This document shows positions 10,540 to 21,159 of a DNA stretch of 64,000 nt, piece after piece. The notes below the pieces were generated by a model. It worked only from the letters and a program-made list of their open reading frames with translations, was not told the origin of the DNA and ran no database searches. Position numbers and translations under genes: made by a program. Where the stretch lies: the NCBI RefSeq assembly GCF_003730195.1, contig NZ_QWGG01000001.1:1-64000 (forward strand), in the 5' to 3' direction. How positions within the stretch are numbered: the stretch's first letter is position 1; the number at the start of each line of letters is the position of its first letter. The DNA comes from Halosimplex salinum. Lineage in GTDB: Archaea > Halobacteriota > Halobacteria > Halobacteriales > Haloarculaceae.

Positions 10540-13500
10540 TCAGCACTCCGACCAGCCGCAGGACTCGCAGGTCTTGCAGCCTTCGGAGTAGTACAGCGAG
10601 AGCGAGCTACACTCCGGACACTCGGGGCTCTCGCCAGCCTCGATCAGCTCCTGCTGGGCGTCCTCGTCGGCCTGCGCGCCCTCGGGACCGGGCTCGCCCG
10701 CATCGCTGCCGGGTCTGGCGTCCATGGACACGGACGCACCGCCGTCGGTCTCGGGTTCCGCGGCCCCAACGTCCTGGTTGGGGTTGCTGTCGTCCTCGCT
10801 CGCGCGTTCCGAGGCGCTTCGCGCCTCGCGCTCCTCGGCGGTCTCCTCCAGCGTCGCCTGCTGGGGGTAGCCCTTGTCGATCTCGTCGTCGAGGTAGCGA
10901 CGCAGGGCCGTGCCGATGGCGTCCGGGATGGACTGGATCTGTTCGCCCTTGTCCCAGGCGACCTTCGGCGAGCGGATGCCCTGGAGTTCGTCGGCGATCT
11001 CGTGGGGATCGACGCCCGCGCGCAGGGCCGTCGAGATGGTCTTGGCCAGCGCCTCCGTGAAGGAAGCGGTGAACCCGCCGGAGTTGCCGATGTTGGCGAA
11101 CAGCTCGAAGGGGCGCTCGGCCTCGGGGTCCTCGTTGATGTTGACGTAGAGCTTCCCGTAGCCGGTGTCGATGCGCTGGGTGACGCCGTGGAGCACGTCC
11201 GGGCGCGAGCGCTTCTGGGCGTACTCAGGGCGGTCGCCGTCGGCGGCACCGAGCAACTGCTCGGTCTCCTCGGCGACGGCCGTCTGCACCGCGTCCTCCT
11301 CGAGGAAGGCGTCGAGCCCGCCGAAGACCTCCTCGATCTGGGCGACGACCTCGCTGGCGTCCATCTCGGAGAACTCGGCGTTCTGGGCGCGCGTGGTGAG
11401 CACCTGCTTCGAGCGGGTGCCGTCGCGGTAGTACGTGACGCCCTTGCCGCCGTGGTCGTAGATGTACTCGAAGACCTCCGCGGCGTCCTCGGTCGTCGAG
11501 TCGTTCGGGGCGTTCACGGTCTTGGAGATGGCGGAGTCGACGCCCTCCTGGCAGGCGACCTGGATGCCCGCGTGTTCCTTCGCGGAGAGCGAGCCCGTGG
11601 TGACGAACAGCTCACCGACCGCGTCGGGGACGGTCGTCAGACCGTCGACGCCGTCGAACTCGTTGTTGGCCATCTGCTCCTGGGCCTCTTCCTTCACGGC
11701 GTCGATGTCGAGGTCGTTCTCCTCAAGCACGCGGAGGAAGTAGTCGTCGAACTCGACGAGCATCTCGTCGCCCTGGACGTCGTCGGAGACGTTCTTGTAG
11801 TAGGCGACGTTGTAGATGGGCTCACAGCCGCCCGTGGTGTTGCCGACCATCGAGGTCGTGCCCGTCGGCGCGATGGTCGTCGTGTTGTGGTTGCGCAGCG
11901 CGAAGCCCTCGGCCCACTCGTCGGCGTCGAGGCCGGTCTGTTTCTCGAACCACTCGCGGTACTCGGTGGGGTTCGCGTACTTGGAGTTGTCCCACTCGGC
12001 GAAGGCGCCGCGGTCCTCGGCGAGCTCGTGGCTCGCCCACTTGGACTCGTGGTTGATGTGGCGCATGAGCTGGCGGGCGACCTCGTTGGAGACGTCGTCG
12101 CCGTACTTCATGCCGAGCTGGATGTACAGCTGTGCGAGGCCCATGACGCCGAGGCCGATCTTGCGCATCTCCCGGACGGTCTCTTCGATCTTCGGGACCG
12201 GGAAGTCGGACATCGTGACCACGTTCTCGAGGAACCGGGTCCCCATCTCGATGCGGTAATCGAACGAGTCGAAGTCGATAGCTTCCGCGAGGAAGGCGTC
12301 GACCGCGTCCTCCAGGGAGTCGTACTCGTCGGCGTGTTCCTCCGACCAGACGCGCCAGTCCGGCGCGTCGCGGGCCGCGAGCGTCGAGAGGTTGATGTGC
12401 CCGAGGTTGCAGGCCTCGTACTCCTCGAGGGGCTGCTCGCCGCAGGGGTTCGTCGCGAGGATGCGGTGGTCCGGGTGCTCCTCCACGTCGAAGGAGTGTT
12501 CCTTGTTCACTCGCTCGAGGTAGATGACGCCCGGCTCGCCGTTCTCGTGGGCGCCGTCGACGATACGCTCCCAGATCTTCCGTGCGGGGACCGAGAGCAC
12601 TTCGCCGACCTCGACGTGGTCGCCGAGGTCGAACATCTCGTACAGTTCCTTCGTCTCGGCGGTGGCGACGTGAGGTTCCTCCGTCCGCGGGTTGGTGAAG
12701 GTGTACTCCTCGTCGGCCTTGACGGCCTCCATGAAGTCGTCGGTGATGCCGACGGAGATGTTGAAGTTCGAGAGGTGGCCCTCGACGGCGTTACGGAGGT
12801 GTTTCGGGACCTTCCCGTCGTCGTCGATGAGTTCGCGAGCCTCCTCCAGCGCGTCGGCGAAGGAGTTGTGCGTGAAGTCGTCGGGGTCGTTCAGGCGAAG
12901 CGTGTGCGCCAGCGAGACGTCCTTGTTCTTCGCGTGGATGAACTGGATGACGTCGGGGTGGGAGACGCGCATGACGCCCATCTGGGCGCCGCGGCGTGCG
13001 CCGCCCTGGGCGATCGTCTCGCACATCTGGTCGAACGTGCGCATGAACGTGATGGGTCCCGAGGCGATACCGCCGGTGGAGCCGACGGCGTCCCCGTACG
13101 GTCGGAGTCGCCAGAAGGCGTAGCCCATGCCGCCGCCGGACTGGAAGACCTCCGCGGCCTCCTTGGCGGTCTGGTGGATGTTCGTGATGTCGTCCTCGGG
13201 CGAGTCGACGAAACAGGCCGAGAGCTGCTGGAGTTCGTCGCCGGCGTTCATCAGCGTCGGCGAGTTCGGCATGAAGGAGAGATCCTCCATCAGCGTCTGG
13301 AACTCCGCGGCCGTCTCCTCGACGTGGTCACGGACGCCGTCCGGGAGTTCCGGGACGACCGTGTCGTAGGCGAACTTGTTGACGTTGTACTGGTCCAGCG
13401 TCGTCTCGGCGTCGTCGTCGACGGTGGTCCCCTTGCCGAACACTTCCTCGGCGAGCTCGTCCCGGCGCGGGTGGTCGGGCTTGAGCTGGTCGGGCGTGAC

Positions 13501-13743
13501 CGTGACTTCGACGTCGCGGTTCTCGGCCTCGTACACCGCTTCGGCGAGCGCGATGTTCTTCGCGACGCGGTCGAACAGGTCCTCCTGCTCCTCGACGGGG
13601 TCCCCGTTGGCGTCCTTGCGCAGATAGCGCGCAGGTAGAATATTGTGATACGCGTTGCCCGTCAGGCGCTCCTCGAGCGTGTCCCCCTCGGTGCGCTTGA
13701 TCGGCAGGTCGATGTCGCCGACTCCGAGATCGGCGTTACTCAT
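10540..13743 (-). CDS. nrdJ: adenosylcobalamin-dependent ribonucleotide reductase (class II)
   Basis: This 1067-residue enzyme reduces ribonucleotides to deoxyribonucleotides with adenosylcobalamin as radical source. Visible signatures are LSACFVDSPEDD with an active-site Cys, GGGMGYAFWRLRPYGD, the radical-site region ATNPCGEQPLEEYEACNLGH, and APTGTTSMVGNTTGGCEPIY. The C-terminus has a redox/zinc cluster (CPECSSL then CKTCESCGW). A 65-residue Ser/Asp/Glu-rich linker lies before that tail. No intein interrupts the conserved blocks. The start at 13743 (MSNADLGVGDIDLPI) is preferred over one six codons earlier. Regulation may involve the imperfect repeat CCAAA-N6-TTTGG at 13846-13861. Confidence 0.95.
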   Translation of the reverse strand: MSNADLGVGDIDLPIKRTEGDTLEERLTGNAYHNILPARYLRKDANGDPVEEQEDLFDRVAKNIALAEAVYEAENRDVEVTVTPDQLKPDHPRRDELAEEVFGKGTTVDDDAETTLDQYNVNKFAYDTVVPELPDGVRDHVEETAAEFQTLMEDLSFMPNSPTLMNAGDELQQLSACFVDSPEDDITNIHQTAKEAAEVFQSGGGMGYAFWRLRPYGDAVGSTGGIASGPITFMRTFDQMCETIAQGGARRGAQMGVMRVSHPDVIQFIHAKNKDVSLAHTLRLNDPDDFTHNSFADALEEARELIDDDGKVPKHLRNAVEGHLSNFNISVGITDDFMEAVKADEEYTFTNPRTEEPHVATAETKELYEMFDLGDHVEVGEVLSVPARKIWERIVDGAHENGEPGVIYLERVNKEHSFDVEEHPDHRILATNPCGEQPLEEYEACNLGHINLSTLAARDAPDWRVWSEEHADEYDSLEDAVDAFLAEAIDFDSFDYRIEMGTRFLENVVTMSDFPVPKIEETVREMRKIGLGVMGLAQLYIQLGMKYGDDVSNEVARQLMRHINHESKWASHELAEDRGAFAEWDNSKYANPTEYREWFEKQTGLDADEWAEGFALRNHNTTTIAPTGTTSMVGNTTGGCEPIYNVAYYKNVSDDVQGDEMLVEFDDYFLRVLEENDLDIDAVKEEAQEQMANNEFDGVDGLTTVPDAVGELFVTTGSLSAKEHAGIQVACQEGVDSAISKTVNAPNDSTTEDAAEVFEYIYDHGGKGVTYYRDGTRSKQVLTTRAQNAEFSEMDASEVVAQIEEVFGGLDAFLEEDAVQTAVAEETEQLLGAADGDRPEYAQKRSRPDVLHGVTQRIDTGYGKLYVNINEDPEAERPFELFANIGNSGGFTASFTEALAKTISTALRAGVDPHEIADELQGIRSPKVAWDKGEQIQSIPDAIGTALRRYLDDEIDKGYPQQATLEETAEEREARSASERASEDDSNPNQDVGAAEPETDGGASVSMDARPGSDAGEPGPEGAQADEDAQQELIEAGESPECPECSSLSLYYSEGCKTCESCGWSEC

Positions 13744-14194
13744 GTGTCGTACCCCTCCCACTGGCGATTCCGGCGCCGGATCGAGAGCGTGACCGCTGTG
13801 GCGTCATACCTATCATTTGTGACGGAATTTCTGTTTGTTTCGGTCCCAAATAACCCTTTGGTTGCGGGAATTTGTCGGGTTCCTCAAGTGTCTGAATGTC
13901 GAGCATTCGCGCCGCTACAGGCATCACTCGCTGTGTAACCGTGCGTTCCGTTCATACGGCGATTACCTCTTAAACGTAGGTGGACCAGAGTGAAAGTAGT
14001 TCGCCTTCCGCTAGAATCGCACGACAGCGACCGGATCTGCAGTGGAAGTGATAGGGGGTTGCGGATCGAGACCGGACGCGAGTCCGATCCTGTGACTGTC
14101 GATCACTGCCACAGCGTGTGTGTATAATTGTTCTTATACATGTGGTGGCATGGAAGGGGATCCGACTCCCGTCCGGTGTTCTACGAAAGGGGCG

Positions 14195-14206
14195 GAAATT
14201 TATATA
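14195..14206 (+). promoter_or_regulatory. strong BRE/TATA-like promoter with no clear gene
   Basis: GGAAATTTATATA is an excellent archaeal BRE plus TATA match. The predicted start point is about 14226-14232, where a GTG at 14225 opens a 54-codon frame of doubtful status. It could instead drive a non-coding RNA. Confidence 0.5.
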
Positions 14207-14224
14207 AGAAATATTGTGGTTGGC

Positions 14225-14389
14225 GTGCCTTTGCGGGACGTAACGGTCGGGTCACGTCGTGTGAGTCACGACGGAACGGTCTGTGATTGGCGGGCTGCTG
14301 ACTGTACGGGCTCAACCTCGACTGTGCGCGGTGGCGGGATGTGCGGCCGTACGGCAACTCAGTGGAATCGGATCGACGGTGACGAGTAG
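14225..14389 (+). CDS. doubtful 54-residue leaderless ORF
   Basis: A GTG at 14225 sits at leaderless distance from the TATA element at 14199-14206 and opens a frame to the TAG at 14387-14389. The peptide (VPLRDVTVGSRRVSHDGTVC and onward) has three cysteines and no recognisable domain, and is neither clearly acidic nor codon-biased like its neighbours. It is listed only because the promoter is strong; it may equally be an untranslated RNA or chance. Confidence 0.2.
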   Translation: MPLRDVTVGSRRVSHDGTVCDWRAADCTGSTSTVRGGGMCGRTATQWNRIDGDE

Positions 14390-14493
14390 TGCGGTCGGGT
14401 GATATCGCTCCATCGACGCCTGTCGGAACAGAGCGCTAGATGGGTTTCGCATCCGCACCGAGCGAAGCGAGGCGCGGTTCTACCGAGCGCCCC

Positions 14494-15495
14494 TCACTCG
14501 ATGGTTCGTTCGAGAAACTGCCGGATAGCATCGGGACCCGCGGGCGGGAGGTCCGCGAAAACGGGCTCGGGCGACCCGCCTTCCTCGACGTGTGTCGCCT
14601 CGTAGACCGACTGGGCGTGTGTCGGGTCCGCCGCCAGCAGGTCCATCGCCACGCGTTCGGACTCGATGTCTTCGACGCTCTCGACCCAGACGTGGTTCAG
14701 GTCGTGTAACTCGTAGAAGACCGCGTTCACACCGGCGTTCTCCAGGGCGTCGAAAAACTGGCGGCTGTGTTCGACGTCCACCACCTCGTCCCGGCGGCCG
14801 TGCATCAACAGCGCCGGCGGGCTCTCGGGCGTGACGTGCGTGACGGGACTGGCCTGTGCCCACCGCTCGGGGTGTTCGGACTGGGGGCCGCCCAGCAACA
14901 GCGGAATGAGTCCCTCGCCTTCTTCCGTCCCGTCGCTCTCGTCCTCGACGAGCCTGAAGTCGGCGGCGCCGTACCAGCTGACGACGGCCTGTACGGCACC
15001 GGATTCGTCGGGCGCGACGGTCTTCTCGACCTCGTCGGCGTAGGCGTCTCCGAGGTCGGTGACGTCGTCGACGACGCCCGCGAGGAGGGCGAGGTGCCCA
15101 CCCGCGGAGGAGCCCCACGCGGCGATCTGGTCGGCATCGTAGCCGTACTCGCCGGCGTGGGCTCGAAGCCACCGGATCGCGGCTTTCACGTCGACGAAGT
15201 GGTCGGGGAAGCGACCCCGTGGGGTGGGGTTCGCCGGGTCGTACATCTCTTCGACGGCCGCCCGCTCGGGGGCCTCCTGGAGGCGGTAGCTGACGCTGGC
15301 GATAGCGCACCCCCACTCGGCGGCGTACTGCTCGGGGTCGGGAATGTTCGAGCGCGTCGCCGCGATCCAGCCGCCGCCGTGGACGTAGACGACGAGCGGC
15401 GGGTTCTCGCGGTCCGGCAGGTAGAGATCGAGTTTCATGTCACCGCTCTCACGCTCCGCGTAGGGGATTCCCTTCTCGATAGTAGTATCAGCCAT
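14494..15495 (-). CDS. alpha/beta-hydrolase esterase (HSL/BD-FAE-like)
   Basis: A 333-residue serine hydrolase with the oxyanion-hole motif HGGGW (residues 40-44) and the nucleophile elbow GSSAGG. The acid is probably in the LMHGRRDEVVDVEHS segment and the His in DLNHVWVESV. This arrangement is that of the hormone-sensitive lipase/carboxylesterase and kynurenine formamidase-like group acting on small esters or amides. A Tyr/Asp-rich insertion (DDVTDLGDAYADEVEKTVA) forms a lid. No signal peptide is seen, so it acts in the cytoplasm. TATA is at 15511-15521, leaderless distance, within a small inverted repeat. Confidence 0.85.
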   Translation of the reverse strand: MADTTIEKGIPYAERESGDMKLDLYLPDRENPPLVVYVHGGGWIAATRSNIPDPEQYAAEWGCAIASVSYRLQEAPERAAVEEMYDPANPTPRGRFPDHFVDVKAAIRWLRAHAGEYGYDADQIAAWGSSAGGHLALLAGVVDDVTDLGDAYADEVEKTVAPDESGAVQAVVSWYGAADFRLVEDESDGTEEGEGLIPLLLGGPQSEHPERWAQASPVTHVTPESPPALLMHGRRDEVVDVEHSRQFFDALENAGVNAVFYELHDLNHVWVESVEDIESERVAMDLLAADPTHAQSVYEATHVEEGGSPEPVFADLPPAGPDAIRQFLERTIE

Positions 15496-15510
15496 TCTAT
15501 CACGAACAAT

Positions 15511-15525
15511 ATAGTATAAGATACT
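15511..15525 (-). promoter_or_regulatory. promoter and overlapping inverted repeat of the 15495 esterase
   Basis: The minus-strand TTATACTATATT lies about 25 nt before the ATG. AGTAT-AAG-ATACT at 15513-15525 overlaps it, so a repressor could cover the TATA box. The operator function is inference only. Confidence 0.4.
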
Positions 15526-15581
15526 AAAGGTTTAGAGATCGAATCCCGGTTCGCCGGTCGAGGCTCACGGTCCGGGGATCG

Positions 15582-16415
15582 TCAAACCGTCGTGAGGAAC
15601 GCCCGGAGTTCCTCGGTCGCACGCTCTCGCTCGTCCCAGAAGACGCAGTGTCCGGCGCCGTCCACGTGCGCGAGTCGCCCGTCCGGGAGGAAGTCGGCTA
15701 TCTCCCGTTCCCGCTCGCGTTCCGCCTCGTCCGCGTCGGCTTTCAGGATCAGCGTCGGCGCCTCGATGTCGCCGTACCGCTCGGTGGGGTCGGCGAGTCC
15801 GTCCTCGAACATGCGGGATATCTCGGGTCGGAGCCGGCGCCTGGCTTCGGCCACTCGGCGCGCGAGGTCAGGCTGTCCGCGCTCGGCGAGGTCCCGGAAC
15901 ATCGTGTCGGACTCGAGCAGTTCCTCGACGCTGCTGTCCTGCCACTCCGCGACCTGTGCTTCGATGTTCTCGTCCGGGCTGTCTTCGACTACGTCGTCGT
16001 TGACCCCGTCGAGCATCCAGACCGGGTCCTCAAGGACGACGGCGCGCGGTCGGTCTGGTCGGCGGGTCGCGGCCACCGTGACCGTGTCGGCACCCATGGA
16101 GTGGCCGAACAGGATCGGGTCCTCGAGCGCGAGCGCATCGAGCAGTCCGAGCAGGTCCGCAGCACGCTCGGGTGGGCCGTACCCCCCGTCGGGGGCGTCG
16201 GAACGGCCGTGCCCGCGAGCGTCGTACAGCACCACGTCGAACTCGGCTCCGAGTTCACGGGCGAGGTCGAGCCGACAGTACCCGTCGTCGGTGAAGCCGT
16301 GGGAGACGACGAACGGCGGACCCGACCCGCCAGTGCGACAGTAGTGCAGCTCGATGCCGTTCGTCTCGACGAATCCGCGCTCCCACTCCTCCGGGATCTG
16401 CGTCTGTCCACTCAT
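15582..16415 (-). CDS. alpha/beta-fold hydrolase
   Basis: A 277-residue protein with the classical alpha/beta-hydrolase layout: VVSHGFTDDGYC (oxyanion HG), VVLYDARGHGRSDAPDGGYG, the nucleophile elbow FGHSMGAD, a helical cap with ISRMFEDGLADPTERYGDI, the acid in LILKADADEAE and the catalytic His in VDGAGHCVFWDE. It resembles bacterial esterase/haloperoxidase-like enzymes; the substrate is not predictable. It is cytoplasmic. An 86-bp gap separates it from the next hydrolase on the same strand. The two are not paralogous in detail (HGGGW class versus HGxxD class). Confidence 0.85.
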   Translation of the reverse strand: MSGQTQIPEEWERGFVETNGIELHYCRTGGSGPPFVVSHGFTDDGYCRLDLARELGAEFDVVLYDARGHGRSDAPDGGYGPPERAADLLGLLDALALEDPILFGHSMGADTVTVAATRRPDRPRAVVLEDPVWMLDGVNDDVVEDSPDENIEAQVAEWQDSSVEELLESDTMFRDLAERGQPDLARRVAEARRRLRPEISRMFEDGLADPTERYGDIEAPTLILKADADEAEREREREIADFLPDGRLAHVDGAGHCVFWDERERATEELRAFLTTV

Positions 16416-16520
16416 CTGTCAGGTTCTCACGGTCGGAAAAGAAAAATCATTCGGCATTGCTCGGCCGCGTAGACGCGCGATTGCCTCGTTTTCGGCTGCA
16501 TCGTCCACGATCCTGGTGTT

Positions 16521-16978
16521 TCAGGATTCGTAGACGAAGCGTTCGACCACCGCATCCGACTCGCACGTGGTTCCGTGCCCGGTCGCGCAGGGACCGAGGA
16601 AGACGCCCGTGAACCCGGTGGTCACCTTCGTCGAGAGGGAGCGAGCCGCCCCCGAAGCGAGTTCTTCGCCGTCTACGCGGAAGCGGTACTCGTCGGTATC
16701 GGCCGCCACAGTCAGGTCGGTCGATGCCCCGACCGGGGTGCGTCCGACCACTTCCGTCGCGTCTCCGATACGGAGACGGACGACGGCTTCCCGCCGACCG
16801 TTCCGACGGGTCACGCCGAGTTGATAGCGGTGCCGTTCGTTGGCTACCACTGCGAGGCCGGCCTCGTCGCCGTCGACTGGGTCGAAGGACAGCGACATCT
16901 CGGCCCGACAGTCGAAGGCCGTCTGTCGCCGGCCGACGAAGGTCGATCCGGATTCGTCGAGGGTTTCCGGCCGCGATG
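16521..16978 (-). pseudogene. C-terminal fragment of GH43-type beta-xylosidase
   Basis: About 151 codons encode a region that matches the beta-sandwich C-terminal domain of GH43 beta-xylosidases: FVGRRQTAFDCRAEMSLSFD, DEAGLAVVANERHRYQLGVT, GFTGVFLGPCATGHG and the terminal ERFVYES. The catalytic five-bladed propeller is entirely absent, and the coding similarity begins exactly at the stop codon of the membrane-protein gene at 16979, in another frame and without a start codon. It is therefore a 3' remnant left when an upstream part was deleted or replaced. The sequence is free of internal stops, so the event may be recent. Fold assignment is by motif recognition only. Confidence 0.65.
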
Positions 16979-17299
16979 CTAGTCGGCCTGCCGCTGAACG
17001 CCGTCGGGCGTCTCGGCGGCTACTCCCGGGACGAACAGGGAGAGGGCGATGAACGTCATCCCCAGTCCGACGAAACACGTCTGGATCAGGCCCGAATGTA
17101 GCGTCGATAGCTGGAACACGTTGTAACAGATCCCCTCGAGGACCGAGCCGACGCTCAGGAACGTAAACCCGCCGGCCACCGCGAGCAGTCGCTGGCTTCG
17201 CTCTCGCTTCGCCGCTCGATAGCCCTGAAACGCGACGAACAGACCGAGCAAGACGATGGCAGCTTTCGCGAGAAGGAGTCCGACGAACACTACTTCCAC
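16979..17299 (-). CDS. small membrane protein paired with wHTH regulator (DUF7521-like)
   Basis: A 106-residue protein with three TM helices (VFVGLLLAKAAIVLLGLFVAF, AGGFTFLSVGSVLEGICYNV, IQTCFVGLGMTFIALSLFV) and a short Arg/Lys-rich cytoplasmic loop (YRAAKRERSQR). Haloarchaeal genomes often carry this type of protein directly behind a winged-helix regulator, and here its ATG overlaps the regulator gene by 10 bp. The pair may be a membrane-linked one-component regulator; the ligand is unknown. The family number is from memory and should be checked. Confidence 0.75.
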   Translation of the reverse strand: MEVVFVGLLLAKAAIVLLGLFVAFQGYRAAKRERSQRLLAVAGGFTFLSVGSVLEGICYNVFQLSTLHSGLIQTCFVGLGMTFIALSLFVPGVAAETPDGVQRQAD

Positions 17300-17649
17300 C
17301 CCGATTGCATCGCGTCCCAGATAGCGCGGAAGCGGTCTGGTGCGTCGTTGCGTCGTTCGACGTCGATCTCGAGGTCCCCGTCTTCCAGGGTGACAGCGAG
17401 TCGGTCGAGGTTCGACTCGAACCGCCTGTAGTGGTTGCCGTCGGCCCGGATTTCGACTCGTTCACGGAGGAGGCCGACGTCGAGCAGGTCTTCGATACGG
17501 CGGTAGATCGTCGCGAGCGATGCGTCGCAGTGGCCTTCCAGCCGCTGGGCCGACATCGCCTGCTGGTCTGTCGCCGTGAGGATGTGCTTGCCGATGTCGT
17601 CACTGATCACGTCGATGATCCGATCGTCCGGTCGCTCTGCTTCGGCCAC
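17290..17649 (-). CDS. winged-helix transcriptional regulator (ArsR-like)
   Basis: A 119-residue winged helix-turn-helix protein: ILTATDQQAMSAQRLEGHC, the recognition-helix region DASLATIYRRIEDLLDVGLL, and the wing VEIRADGNHYRRFESN. The C-terminus (LAVTLEDGDLEIDVERR) is acidic. It probably controls its own operon with the overlapping membrane-protein gene. TATA on the minus strand at about 17673-17680 (AAGTATAT) is 28 nt from the ATG, so the operon is leaderless. Confidence 0.85.
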   Translation of the reverse strand: MAEAERPDDRIIDVISDDIGKHILTATDQQAMSAQRLEGHCDASLATIYRRIEDLLDVGLLRERVEIRADGNHYRRFESNLDRLAVTLEDGDLEIDVERRNDAPDRFRAIWDAMQSGWK

Positions 17650-18025
17650 GGGAGGGAGTGGGACTGCCGAAGATATACTTATCCGCCGGCTAAACCGGTC
17701 GGCGAATCGGACGAACCGGCTGGCAGGTGTCGATCGCGCGTCCGACCGCTGGCCCGGACACGGACGATCCGAGCGTTTGCAGCCAGTGCGAACACGCTGG
17801 CATATTTATTCTGAACAGTCGCCTCTGCCCGGACACAGTGACCGCCCGACGCGATACCCGTCCGATTGCTGTGACGCGGACCAGCCAATGGAACGACGAG
17901 CGTGGATCGACTGAACGGCCGGGCCGCTCCGTCCCCGTGGGGAACGTCCACCCGGACGGTGGGTCACCCGAGACACGCGCTTCACGCGAGGGGAGACCGA
18001 ACGCACTCGACGCGAGGGCGAACCG
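17650..18025. other. 376-bp divergent intergenic region
   Basis: Leftward the region contains the TATA of the regulator operon (17673-17680). Rightward a TATA-like CATATTTATTC at about 17799-17809 could serve the lipoprotein-carbamoyltransferase operon, leaving a roughly 190-nt leader, which is long for haloarchaea. No additional gene is evident. Confidence 0.5.
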
Positions 18026-19084
18026 ATGACGGACCGGCGAGTGACCCGACGGCGGGTACTGCTCGGCACCGGGGCCCTCGTTGGACTGGCAGGGTGTTCC
18101 GGCCTCACCGAGAGGGGCACGGAGTCGACCCGCTCGTCACCGACAGGGAGCGACTCGACGGCCACGGACACCGAGGGCGCCGTCGCGCCCCCGGAGACCG
18201 AGTCGATGACCAGGACCGCGACCGAGACCAGAACCGCGACCGCGACCGAGACCGAAACCCCGGCCCCGACAGCGACCGATGCCGGGCCCGGATACAAGCA
18301 GGACCACTGGCACGGACGGCTCTTCTTCGAGATCGACGGCGAACTCGTCGACTTCGACCAGCCGAACTACTACCTGGACACCATCGAAGACGAGCGCCCG
18401 GAGACGGTGTACTTCCACTTCCACGACGGGGCACACGGTCCGAACGAGTGGAGTAACGAGAAGCGGATCGTCACGTTCCAGCGGGCCCTGAACCTGCTAC
18501 CGGGTATCGGGTACGAACGACGCGACGGCGCGCACCGCGTCACCTACGAGGGGACGGCGTACGACGCCTCCCGGACCGGGACGGACGTCACGATCCACCG
18601 CGGGACAGAGCGGATCGACCCGACGACGTACGAGGTCCGCCACGACGACAACTTCTGGGTCACCGTCCAGACCGAGGAGGGTACCGGATCCGCTACAGAC
18701 GAGCGCAGCGGCAAGCTCGTCGTCGACGTGAACAACCGCCGGCTCGAGTTCGGATCGGCCGCACGGCAAGCCGGTTCGGACCGGTTCGAGTTCCGGGACG
18801 ACGGCGAGCCCTACACCTGGTACAGCGCGGGCGATCCGGTGACGCTGGAGCGCGCGCTCGCGACCGTCCCGTACCTCTCCTACGACCGCAGTGGCGGGGG
18901 CCACGTGGTCAGGTACGAGTCCGGCGACGCCCTCGCGGGAACCTACCGCGAGACCGCCGACGCGACGCAGATCATCGCCCGCCAGCGTACCACGCCCGTC
19001 GATCCCACCTCGTACACGCTGCAGGACGGCGACATCGTCTGGGTGTACGTCCACACCGCGAACGCTCCCGACAACGAACACTGA
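18026..19084 (+). CDS. Tat lipoprotein with two His-rich repeat domains
   Basis: The 352-residue protein begins with a twin-arginine signal and lipobox (TRRRVLLGTGALVGLAGC; Cys-24), then a Thr/Glu/Ser linker to about residue 88. Two copies of a roughly 115-residue domain follow (97-216 and 229-344). Shared landmarks are a GRL/GKL strand, F-H/E-F-x-D-G, a VTFQRAL/VTLERAL helix, YERRDGAH/YDRSGGGH, and a closing IDPTTYEVRHDD / VDPTSYTLQDGD. The first copy is His-rich (DHWHG, YFHFHDGAHG), which suggests metal binding; the second has lost most of these His residues. It should face the cell exterior. It is followed after 2 bp by a carbamoyltransferase gene, so the two form an operon. Confidence 0.85.
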   Translation: MTDRRVTRRRVLLGTGALVGLAGCSGLTERGTESTRSSPTGSDSTATDTEGAVAPPETESMTRTATETRTATATETETPAPTATDAGPGYKQDHWHGRLFFEIDGELVDFDQPNYYLDTIEDERPETVYFHFHDGAHGPNEWSNEKRIVTFQRALNLLPGIGYERRDGAHRVTYEGTAYDASRTGTDVTIHRGTERIDPTTYEVRHDDNFWVTVQTEEGTGSATDERSGKLVVDVNNRRLEFGSAARQAGSDRFEFRDDGEPYTWYSAGDPVTLERALATVPYLSYDRSGGGHVVRYESGDALAGTYRETADATQIIARQRTTPVDPTSYTLQDGDIVWVYVHTANAPDNEH

Positions 19085-19086
19085 GC

Positions 19087-20844
19087 ATGTCCGGGTACAC
19101 ACTCGCGTTCAAGCCGGCGATCGGTCTGTACGGACAGCACGACCCGAGCGCCGTCCTCTTCGAAGACGGTCGCCTCGTGTACGGGATCGAGGAGGAACGG
19201 CTCACACGCCAGAAACACGCGGTCGACACGTTCCCGGAGCGGGCGATCCAGTCGTGTCTCGACTACCGCGACCTCGCCCTGTCGGATGTCGACCGGGTGC
19301 TTCTGCCCTACGACCCGACCCTCCGGTCGAAGCTGATTCCGCACCACGTGCGGGACGCGTTCCGCGTGGACGGCGCAGTCCGGACGCTCACGTCCGTCGA
19401 GACCCTCGTGAAGACCCAGGCGAAGAGCCGGTTTTTCCCGAGGCGTGAGGTCGAGTCCAGGCTGGCCGCGCTCGGCGACTCCGTGCCGCCGATCGAGACG
19501 CGGTCTCATCACGCCTGTCACGCCGCGAGCGCCTTCCATCCGTCCGGCTTCGAACAGTCGCTCGTGCTCACCGTCGACGCCAAGGGCGAGTACGACTCGA
19601 CGGTGGTGTGGTGCGGCGACGCGGACGGCCTCGAACGCGTCCGAACCTATACGCACCCCAACAGCCTCGGTCTCTTTTTCGCCATCGTCACCGAGTACCT
19701 CGGCTACCGGATGTTCAACGGCGAGGGGAAGGTGATGGGGCTCGCCCCCTACGGGAACGAGAACCCGTCTGTCGAGCGAACGCTTCGGTCGCTGATCGAC
19801 ACGGGCGTCGACTACGACGTCACGGAACTCACCCGTCGATGGGGGACAGGACACGGCGTCCGCCGCCTGGAGGCGGCGTTCGACCGCGACCGGACCGAGA
19901 CGCCGGAGGAGTTCACCCAGTGGGAGAAGGACCTGGCGTACACCGCGCAAAAACTCCTCGAGGAGACGGTGCTCGCTATCGTCGAGGAGTACACCGAGAC
20001 GGTGGGCAGCGATACCCTCTCGCTCGCCGGCGGCGTCGCCCTCAACTGCAAACTGAACAAGCGACTTCGAGAGTCAGACGCCGTCGACGACGTCTTCGTT
20101 CAGCCAGTGGCGCACGACGCCGGCCTCGCCGTCGGTGCGGGCCTGCTCGAGCGGTCCCCCGCGGAAGTGCCGCAACTCGAAACTGTGTACTACGGCCCGG
20201 AGTACGACGCCGACGAGATTCGAGACCTCCTGGAGTGGAACAAGATACCGTACAGCGAGCCCGAGGACACCGAGCGCGTCGTCGCCGAACGTCTGGCTGA
20301 CGGCGATCTGGTCGGGTGGTTCGACGGTCGCCTCGAACTCGGCCCCCGGGCGCTCGGGAACCGGAGCATCCTCGCCGATCCGCGGACCGCCGAGTCCCGT
20401 GACCGTGTGAACCGGTTCGTCAAACACCGCGAGGAATGGCGGCCGTTCGCCCCCTCGATGCTGGAAGCGGCAGCAGACGAGTACCTCGTCGACGGCGAAG
20501 CAGCCCCGTTCATGATCTCGGCGTTCGACGTGGACCCGGCCAGGCGCGACGAGATCGAGGCCGTTCTGCACCCGGCCGACGACACGACACGCCCGCAGAC
20601 TGTCGCCCAGCGACAGAACCCGCGGTACCACCGCCTTATCTCGGAGTTCGCCGATATCACCGGCGTTCCGGTCCTCCTCAACACGTCGTTCAACGACCAC
20701 GCCGAGCCCATCGTCACGACGCCGACGGAGGCGCTGAAGGACTTCTTCGGGATGGGGCTCGACGTCCTCGCCTTCGAAGGCCTCGTCGTCGAGAAGTCGA
20801 CTATCGAAACCGACAGACCGGCCGTGCCCGCCAGGACCACGTGA
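19087..20844 (+). CDS. NodU/CmcH-family carbamoyltransferase
   Basis: A 585-residue O-carbamoyltransferase. The N-terminal Kae1-like domain has HDPSAVLFEDGRLVYGIEEE, the metal-site motif HHACHAASAF, TVDAKGEYDSTVVW and MFNGEGKVMGLAPYG. LSLAGGVALNCKLN and VQPVAHDAGLAVGAGL follow, then the C-terminal YrdC-like part (ELGPRALGNRSILADPR, REEWRPFAPSML, VPVLLNTSFNDHAEPI). These enzymes make a carbamoyl-adenylate from carbamoyl phosphate and ATP and transfer it to hydroxyls of antibiotics, nodulation factors or surface sugars. The start at 19087 lies 2 bp after the lipoprotein stop. The acceptor in this archaeon is unknown; a surface glycan is a reasonable guess. Confidence 0.9.
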   Translation: MSGYTLAFKPAIGLYGQHDPSAVLFEDGRLVYGIEEERLTRQKHAVDTFPERAIQSCLDYRDLALSDVDRVLLPYDPTLRSKLIPHHVRDAFRVDGAVRTLTSVETLVKTQAKSRFFPRREVESRLAALGDSVPPIETRSHHACHAASAFHPSGFEQSLVLTVDAKGEYDSTVVWCGDADGLERVRTYTHPNSLGLFFAIVTEYLGYRMFNGEGKVMGLAPYGNENPSVERTLRSLIDTGVDYDVTELTRRWGTGHGVRRLEAAFDRDRTETPEEFTQWEKDLAYTAQKLLEETVLAIVEEYTETVGSDTLSLAGGVALNCKLNKRLRESDAVDDVFVQPVAHDAGLAVGAGLLERSPAEVPQLETVYYGPEYDADEIRDLLEWNKIPYSEPEDTERVVAERLADGDLVGWFDGRLELGPRALGNRSILADPRTAESRDRVNRFVKHREEWRPFAPSMLEAAADEYLVDGEAAPFMISAFDVDPARRDEIEAVLHPADDTTRPQTVAQRQNPRYHRLISEFADITGVPVLLNTSFNDHAEPIVTTPTEALKDFFGMGLDVLAFEGLVVEKSTIETDRPAVPARTT

Positions 20845-21087
20845 CCCCCGCCGCCTCCGCCAGGTTGTACAGCACGTCCAGAATCACTTCTCGTTCGGCG
20901 GTTTCGGAGTCGATCTCCGTGAGGGAGGTATCTGAGACTCGGACGTCCTCGAAATCCAGAATCCGAACGCAATCTGCGGACAGTTCGACTATCTCGGAAT
21001 CGCGTGAGGATCGGAATGGACTCGCGGGGGTCTCGCGAACGTAGTGAGTGAGACCTCGCGAGGAAATGACCGAACGAAGTGAGGGAA
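20845..21087. other. lower-GC integration-scar remnant beside tRNA-Ala
   Basis: This stretch is less GC-rich than both flanks and contains a minus-strand coding-like frame (ADCVRILDFEDVRVSDTSLT, then EREVILDVLYNLAEAAGV) that has no start codon of its own. Upstream that frame runs into the 17-bp copy of the tRNA 3' end at 21013-21029. An inverted repeat (GGTCTC and GAGACC near 21029-21054) follows. The likely reading is the end of a lost element integrated at the tRNA gene. Confidence 0.45.
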
Positions 21088-21100
21088 TGGACTCGCGGGG
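21013..21100. repeat. 17-bp direct repeat of tRNA-Ala 3' end (att-like)
   Basis: GGAATGGACTCGCGGGG occurs at 21013-21029 and again at 21084-21100, where it includes the acceptor 3' strand and part of the T-stem of tRNA-Ala. A duplicated tRNA 3' end next to a truncated ORF is the classical footprint of a tRNA-targeting integrase. No integrase gene is nearby. Confidence 0.6.
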
Positions 21101-21159
21101 ATTTGAACCCCGGGCCTCTTCCTTGCGAAGGAAGCGATCTGCCACTGATCTACGAGCCC
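21088..21159 (-). tRNA. tRNA-Ala (anticodon CGC)
   Basis: The 72-nt cloverleaf starts GGGCTCG and closes with CGAGTCC plus discriminator A. The anticodon stem CTTCC/GGAAG encloses the loop TTCGCAA, so the anticodon is CGC, which reads GCG. The T-arm is CCGGGGTTCAAATCCCCG-like. No intron is seen and CCA is not encoded. It lies downstream of rpsJ in the same direction. Confidence 0.95.

Follow-up and report, generated by a model that had tools for sequence, protein, structure and literature searches.

Genes and features at the locus

The window analysed here is a stretch of 64,000 nucleotides from Halosimplex salinum (contig NZ_QWGG01000001.1, positions 1 to 64,000; G000 denotes this genome, of 5.07 Mb). 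Our subject is a gene pair within it, encoding a Tat-type lipoprotein and a class III carbamoyltransferase that starts 2 bp after the end of the lipoprotein open reading frame (ORF). A first-pass annotation, made from the sequence alone, had described a Tat lipoprotein with a duplicated domain followed at that distance by a NodU/CmcH enzyme, and both ORFs are confirmed, at 18026-19084 and 19087-20844. It had missed the divergent pair of helix-turn-helix (HTH) and DUF7521 genes, the operator, and the insertion beside tRNA-Ala. The gene pair, its linkage and the operator are well supported, and comprise the following features:

16979..17299, minus strand: DUF7521 small membrane protein, 106 amino acids (PF24365, E 5e-17; accompanied by the HTH gene at enzyme loci of relatives)
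17290..17649, minus strand: winged-HTH regulator, 119 amino acids (HTH_20 and HVO_A0261_N matches under the Pfam cut-off)
17673..17680, minus strand: TATA-like box AAGTATAT, some 25 nt upstream of the HTH start (placed by eye)
17773..17795, no strand: operator palindrome GCGTTTGCAGCCAGTGCGAACAC, equal to GCGTTTGCA-N5-TGCGAAC (comparison and alignment of 7 loci)
17803..17810, plus strand: TATA-like TATTTATT beside the operator, a candidate promoter for the lipoprotein-enzyme unit (suggested by locus alignment)
18026..19084, plus strand: Tat-type lipoprotein with two beta-grasp-like domains, 352 amino acids (ORF, Pfam, self-alignment, model)
18296..18676, plus strand: lipoprotein domain 1, His-rich (HWHG, FHFH, H137, PNEWSNEK; kept in 10/10 orthologues; model residues 5-131)
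18695..19063, plus strand: lipoprotein domain 2, degenerate copy (self-alignment, orthologue alignment; model residues 138-260)
19087..20844, plus strand: complete class III (NodU/TobZ-type) carbamoyltransferase, 585 amino acids (Pfam, structure-based and homologue alignments)

Linkage of the lipoprotein and the carbamoyltransferase

The co-occurrence of the two families was followed in 146 family genomes and 392 order genomes, two sets that overlap. Full-length orthologues of the lipoprotein were found at ten loci, and the enzyme lies beside or near the lipoprotein gene in all ten, across several genera and three families. Seven of these loci are in family genomes (the window, G081, G022, G025 twice, G050 and G067), and the other three are in G220 and G283 of the order sample and in Halegenticoccus soli. 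Seven of the ten have the genes co-directional, with gaps of 6-21 bp between the hidden Markov model envelopes; the remaining layouts are a 228 bp gap (L105), a 1478 bp gap (L158) and a convergent arrangement (L100). The mature lipoproteins of linked loci, distant families included, are 53-85% identical. The identity matrices of lipoprotein and enzyme are correlated (r 0.908, Mantel p 1e-4, n=10), a result that shared ancestry alone could yield. An eleventh lipoprotein copy, in G042, is truncated and has no enzyme beside it.

The divergent regulator pair and its operator

The HTH/DUF7521 pair lies upstream of the lipoprotein-enzyme unit and diverges from it. Relatives of the HTH protein are abundant (144/146 family genomes), and the gene is therefore informative only as a close subtype: six copies have at least 63% identity, every one of them at an enzyme locus, and the next best in the 146 genomes has 48%. 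We found the operator by comparing intergenic stretches; an inverted-repeat search did not list it because the window copy is imperfect. Each of 6/6 genomes (G000, G081, G022, G025, G063 and G065) has a single perfect match to the operator, in every case at the enzyme locus, and three genomes that lack the enzyme (G094, G092 and G075) have 0 perfect copies. The enzyme locus of G221 carries the operator with two mismatches. A shuffle test on the window alone, allowing up to 3 mismatches, gave 4 operator matches against 1.89 expected, which is not significant; the evidence for the operator is the perfect, genome-unique match.

The TATA-like box follows the palindrome by a few bases at every aligned locus (TTTAT/CTTAT), with TTAT in 7/7 and TTTAT in 6/7. 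G063 and G065 lack the lipoprotein, and there the operator directly precedes the enzyme. The same two genomes have a gene for a seven-transmembrane histidine kinase 163 bp after the enzyme, on the same strand (L090 7273-9039, L091 11109-12923).

Sequence and catalytic residues of the carbamoyltransferase

The enzyme matches PF02543 (169.5 bits, cut-off 24, E 1.8e-49) and PF16861 (215.1 bits, cut-off 27, E 6.3e-64), and joins a Kae1-like N-terminal to a YrdC-like C-terminal domain. Its closest solved relatives are NovN (9s2t), TobZ (3ven) and GdmN (7vyj), at E 1e-82 to 1e-91. Equivalents of the iron ligands (H141, H145, D164 and D344) are present in 76/76 aligned haloarchaeal homologues and that of the general base (H18) in 75/76; these roles are taken from GdmN, as given in the available part of PMC9633730. 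The catalytic residues are intact; carbamoyl transfer dependent on ATP and carbamoyl phosphate is the predicted activity. Loop 1 (FKPAIGLYGQHDPSA), which in GdmN forms part of the substrate pocket, is nearly constant across the 58-member clade described below, and acceptors of class III enzymes without a dimerisation domain are usually polar (both from the same part of PMC9633730). The enzyme is classed as TobZ-like because it is without a GdmN-type C-terminal extension, and, as no export signal was recognised by eye, it should act in the cytoplasm.

Domains and predicted fold of the lipoprotein

The lipoprotein N terminus (RRRVLLGTGALVGLAGC) was read by eye as a Tat signal with a lipobox (RRRVLLG...LAGC), and is followed by a Thr-rich linker. 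LPAM_1 is the only Pfam match up to E 1, with no match to the transcobalamin-C-like profile; it scores 16.7 bits, below its cut-off of 20, so that the profile by itself is no proof of a lipobox. The duplication holds: domains 1 and 2 are 33% identical (E 1e-12), and an AlphaFold2 model (mean predicted local distance difference test score, pLDDT, 90.9; predicted template modelling score 0.85) contains two similar beta-grasp-like domains. The description of a His-rich first and a degenerate second copy also fits the window, with 8 and 3 His residues respectively, yet two orthologues (L100 and L105) retain FHFH in copy two. In copy one, H94, H96, H131, H133 and H137 (model residues 8, 10, 45, 47 and 51) are invariant in 10/10 orthologues, as is K146 (model residue 60). 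Across the wider His-rich domain family, W142 is present in 41/41 and H131 in 40/41 aligned rows.

Sequence searches for solved relatives gave none with phmmer and E 0.25 or worse with profiles. By structure, the nearest folds for each domain are the transcobalamin-type beta domain 4kki (Z 8.4, 92 residues, root mean square deviation (rmsd) 3.3) and 3u7z, a 'putative metal binding protein' (Z 8.0, 92 residues, rmsd 3.3). The modelled domains may be similar to these proteins in their beta-grasp arrangement, a fold hint that says nothing of function. A C-terminal Gly-Gly is the mark of the ubiquitin-like carriers MoaD, ThiS and SAMP; the lipoprotein was rejected as such a carrier, as the window copy ends in APDNEH and 0/10 orthologues end in Gly-Gly.

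Phylogenetic distribution and gene neighbourhoods

Enzyme matches occur in 33/146 family genomes at E 1e-30 and 78/392 order genomes at E 1e-180, and at E 1e-30 in 0/7 other genomes of the window genus. The 77 enzyme loci analysed are part of all matches, several order matches (for example G210, G226, G232, G235 and G317) being left out. In their tree, the window enzyme falls in a clade of 58 with support 100/98. Neighbours were counted inside stretches taken around each locus, sugar-type neighbours being our own clusters within 6 kb, labelled by eye. Inside the clade we find HTH at 28/58, full-length lipoprotein at 10/58, C31 (an exported lipoprotein described below) at 18/58 and sugar-type neighbours at 2/58; outside it the corresponding figures are 0/19, 0/19, 0/19 and 16/19. 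The enzyme had been said to stand with a cell-surface protein only, which does not hold: it has its own HTH/DUF7521 pair, and only 10 of the 58 clade members have the lipoprotein. By label, there are no sugar-biosynthesis genes within 6 kb of the window enzyme.

Many enzyme copies are on plasmids. On plasmid NZ_CP044525.1 of Halorussus halophilus, one stretch holds CcmB, CcmA, CcmE, a thioredoxin-domain protein, HTH, a DUF7521-like gene, carA, the lipoprotein, the enzyme, DUF302, a multicopper oxidase, thioredoxin, plastocyanin, DUF411 and TauE. The carA gene (carbamoyl-phosphate synthase small subunit; L153 10366-11466) lies directly upstream of the pair and is a second copy, 70% identical to another on contig 1.

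A sister operator and the C31 lipoprotein

In sister lineages a different palindrome, GATTTGCTG-NN-CAGCAAATC, has 1-4 sites per genome at up to 2 mismatches in 10/10 genomes searched (eight of family f7, plus G064 and G122), and the reversed pattern, used as a control, has 0 matches in all ten. At most of these loci the site lies about 69 bp before the enzyme start. Sister sites also precede the genes for C31, K6 (a membrane protein with SGCASCG), DsbA-like, SCO1 and HTH proteins; G203 has two unlinked sites, before its K6 and DsbA-like genes, and the pattern misses the enzyme's own site in G230, which has degenerated too far.

C31 has no Pfam match above cut-off, the best being polysaccharide deacetylase at 22.2 bits against 23.1. 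In its model (pLDDT 73.5), residues 6-150 match carbohydrate-binding modules (CBM11, Z about 12) and residues 151-371 match deacetylases of the CE4 family (Z 12-17). C31 (L094 6019-7941) finds its best fold match in the turret protein of Haloferax tailed virus 1 (Z 20.4, rmsd 9.8, 330 residues, 17% identity), and the modelled likeness suggests a glycan-binding architecture shared by host and virus.

A proposed model: a regulated envelope module

Taken together, a model emerges that we put forward tentatively: a regulated envelope module in which the enzyme would carbamoylate a surface-glycan precursor and the exported lipoprotein would bind a ligand or metal. The HTH protein would act at the palindrome beside the TATA box of the lipoprotein-enzyme unit, probably under the control of its DUF7521 membrane partner; we infer regulation in vivo, for which the inducing signal may be thiol or metal stress at the envelope. 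In the cytoplasm, the enzyme would activate carbamoyl phosphate with ATP and carbamoylate a single conserved polar acceptor; a hydroxyl on a sugar of the precursor (or an amino sugar) is the likeliest candidate. The lipoprotein would be exported folded via Tat and then lipid-anchored outside, where its His-rich beta-grasp domain might bind the modified ligand or a metal.

The observed base of the model comprises the gene structure, the linkage, the operator footprint, the intact catalytic residues and the sister operator before other exported proteins. The earlier suggestion of a small unreported carbamoylation system stands as far as a conserved pair outside biosynthetic clusters is concerned; its glycan part draws indirect support from the co-regulated, CE4-fold lipoprotein C31 of sister lineages. 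The model is also favoured by the correlated identity matrices, the nearly constant loop 1, the second carA copy of Halorussus halophilus and the sugar-type neighbours of 16/19 homologues outside the clade. The finding exceeds a lone pair because the operator is genome-unique and exported proteins of sister lineages lie under a matching operator. A broader version, in which HTH/DUF7521 turns on surface-glycan carbamoylation together with glycan- or metal-binding lipoproteins and proteins handling disulfides and copper, so that the carbamoyl mark is gated by stress, appears doubtful.

Several observations weigh against the model. Neither HTH nor lipoprotein is found with 27/58 clade members, and sugar-type neighbours occur at just 2/58 clade loci, so that what ties this subfamily to glycans is C31, kinship, and the occurrence near one branch of GlmS-like and UDP-sugar-dehydrogenase genes. 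On the two findings that would have refuted the first-pass reading, a linkage confined to this strain and separate promoters, the outcome favours that reading: linkage extends over three families, and the sole operator/TATA footprinted for the unit lies upstream of the lipoprotein. The convergent layout of L100 and the gap of about 1.5 kb in L158 are counter-evidence, and co-transcription is thus not universal. The Foldseek matches of the lipoprotein are weak (best E 0.039 for 4kki, E 0.05-0.11 for 3u7z). CE4 enzymes carry known metal motifs; these seem lost in C31 (consensus, by eye), which may therefore only bind, as a pseudoenzyme. Redox-type neighbours occur at 21/58 clade loci compared with 2/20 random windows (p 0.044), a weak and post hoc enrichment, as the redox-type clusters were picked after the loci were seen, and at 19/31 loci having HTH or lipoprotein; beside the window pair there are no redox or metal genes.

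Part of this evidence bears on an alternative in which the enzyme makes a carbamoylated metal- or thiol-handling metabolite for copper or thiol stress, with the His-rich lipoprotein as an extracellular binder of either that metabolite or the metal. The sister operator common to the DsbA-like, SCO1 and K6 genes argues for it, as do the islands near several loci (multicopper oxidase, plastocyanin, DUF302, DUF326, ArsP_1, TauE, rhodanese-lactamase or CcmE), the truncated lipoprotein of G042, whose neighbourhood includes HTH, DUF7521 and a large protein in which CxxC repeats of heavy-metal type were recognised by eye, and the nearest folds, which include 3u7z and the cobalamin-binding domain of transcobalamin. 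Yet the enzyme comes without a biosynthetic cluster, the window without a redox or metal island, and the redox enrichment over random windows is weak. We regard the metabolite as an unlikely product and lean towards the surface glycan as the target.

The two genes could also be co-travelling cargo of one accessory island, with a shared promoter and no common substrate. Their block (13762-21087) is absent beside tRNA-Ala in four congeners, many enzyme copies are on plasmids and 48/58 clade members have no lipoprotein, all of which would suit cargo; adjacency is nonetheless kept in distant families at 53-85% mature-lipoprotein identity and the operator is genome-unique in 6 genomes, and we judge cargo improbable. 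Modification of the lipoprotein itself, for instance at the lysine of PNEWSNEK before Tat export, is less credible still and would surprise us. A NodU-like enzyme carbamoylates a peptide lysine in Streptomyces, according to the available part of PMC13174530, and K146 is invariant in the orthologues; but most clade enzymes occur without the lipoprotein, and a similar NEK motif is found in L111, whose genome, G187, is absent among the enzyme matches listed.

Relation to known systems

Members of this carbamoyltransferase family have been described for antibiotics and for Nod factors, in whose rhizobial synthesis NodU and NodB act. The window enzyme belongs to the NodU family and scores 157.9 bits against the nodulation equivalog NF041651, whose cut-off is 1000. 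In sister lineages a NodB-type (CE4) fold recurs in C31, which there has an operator type in common with the enzyme. TobZ (nebramycin O-carbamoyltransferase), NovN and GdmN are alike in their two-domain class III architecture, iron ligands and base; the window enzyme differs in having no antibiotic cluster, its own regulator and exported lipoprotein, and no GdmN-type extension. Carbamoyltransferases from haloarchaeal glycan clusters, such as the window genome's own paralogue G000:C27:140244, which falls outside the 58-member clade, have the same domains and about 45-61% identity to the window enzyme, but their neighbours resemble genes for glycosyltransferases, sulfatases and epimerases (by eye), with HTH/DUF7521 at 0/19.

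Three other assignments were rejected. Reading of the ORFs beside the window pair showed no genes of a secondary-metabolite cluster. For a viral origin, the lipoprotein has 0 matches in 50,697 phage records and none at E 0.001 or better in a viral fold library. For anti-phage defence, PADLOC gave no match to lipoprotein or enzyme, and the HTH protein has weak CARF/Csa3 matches only.

In the literature, the available parts of two papers place members of the enzyme family in phage DNA (PMC8670742) and in a peptide pathway (PMC13174530). Haloarchaeal copper genes are described in PMC9240420, the available part of which holds nothing on the pair. Among open PMC papers we found none on DUF7521 and, judged by title and start of abstract, no report of the pair or system. 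The parts are ordinary; the arrangement is one for which no published report was found in open PMC papers.

Through the conserved operator the enzyme is linked with an exported lipoprotein; in sister lineages the link extends to envelope proteins of the Dsb/SCO1 type. The result is a regulon, predicted by phylogenetic footprint, whose operator is defined and whose roughly four to seven genes can be tested, along with a route to the acceptor via comparative mass spectrometry. It also opens a way to learn what the His-rich domain family, widespread in haloarchaea, does. Enzyme, lipoprotein and their own switch are inherited together, and related switches are predicted to control other exported proteins as well, which hints at an unreported surface-modification programme.

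The accessory block beside tRNA-Ala

The block that carries the pair is an accessory insertion, by sequence comparison with congeners, next to one further feature:

21088..21159, minus strand: tRNA-Ala(CGC) bordering the accessory block (tRNA search; congener comparison)

The block is absent at tRNA-Ala in 4/6 congeners examined (G091, G092, G093 and G094); there tRNA-Ala and the counterpart of the gene at 10540-13761 are about 0.8-1.8 kb apart, with no match to 14494-20844 between. In G089 and G090 the counterpart of this gene was not found in the stretch examined. A 17-base copy of the tRNA end is present at 21013-21029. Just after DUF7521, an ORF at 16521-16978 (minus strand) matches the C-terminal domain of GH43 beta-xylosidases (PF17851, E 9e-25) without a catalytic domain, and looks like a gene remnant.

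Other proteins with the His-rich domain

Other haloarchaeal proteins with HHG, FHFH and WHxH motifs belong to the same domain family as the lipoprotein but occur in other contexts, not with the enzyme (by eye). The domain is widespread in haloarchaea (L018-L038, L114-L130), in zinc-finger-transmembrane proteins near NAD-synthase-like and enoyl-CoA-hydratase-like genes and, in another form, in small lipoproteins between Orc1-like and signal-peptidase-like genes (neighbours by eye in both cases). In L083 (6143-7075 and 12063-13052), L084 and L086, pairs of diverging two-domain homologues stand on either side of a conserved gene group that includes an AAA-ATPase-like gene; in these homologues domain two, not domain one, is rich in His.

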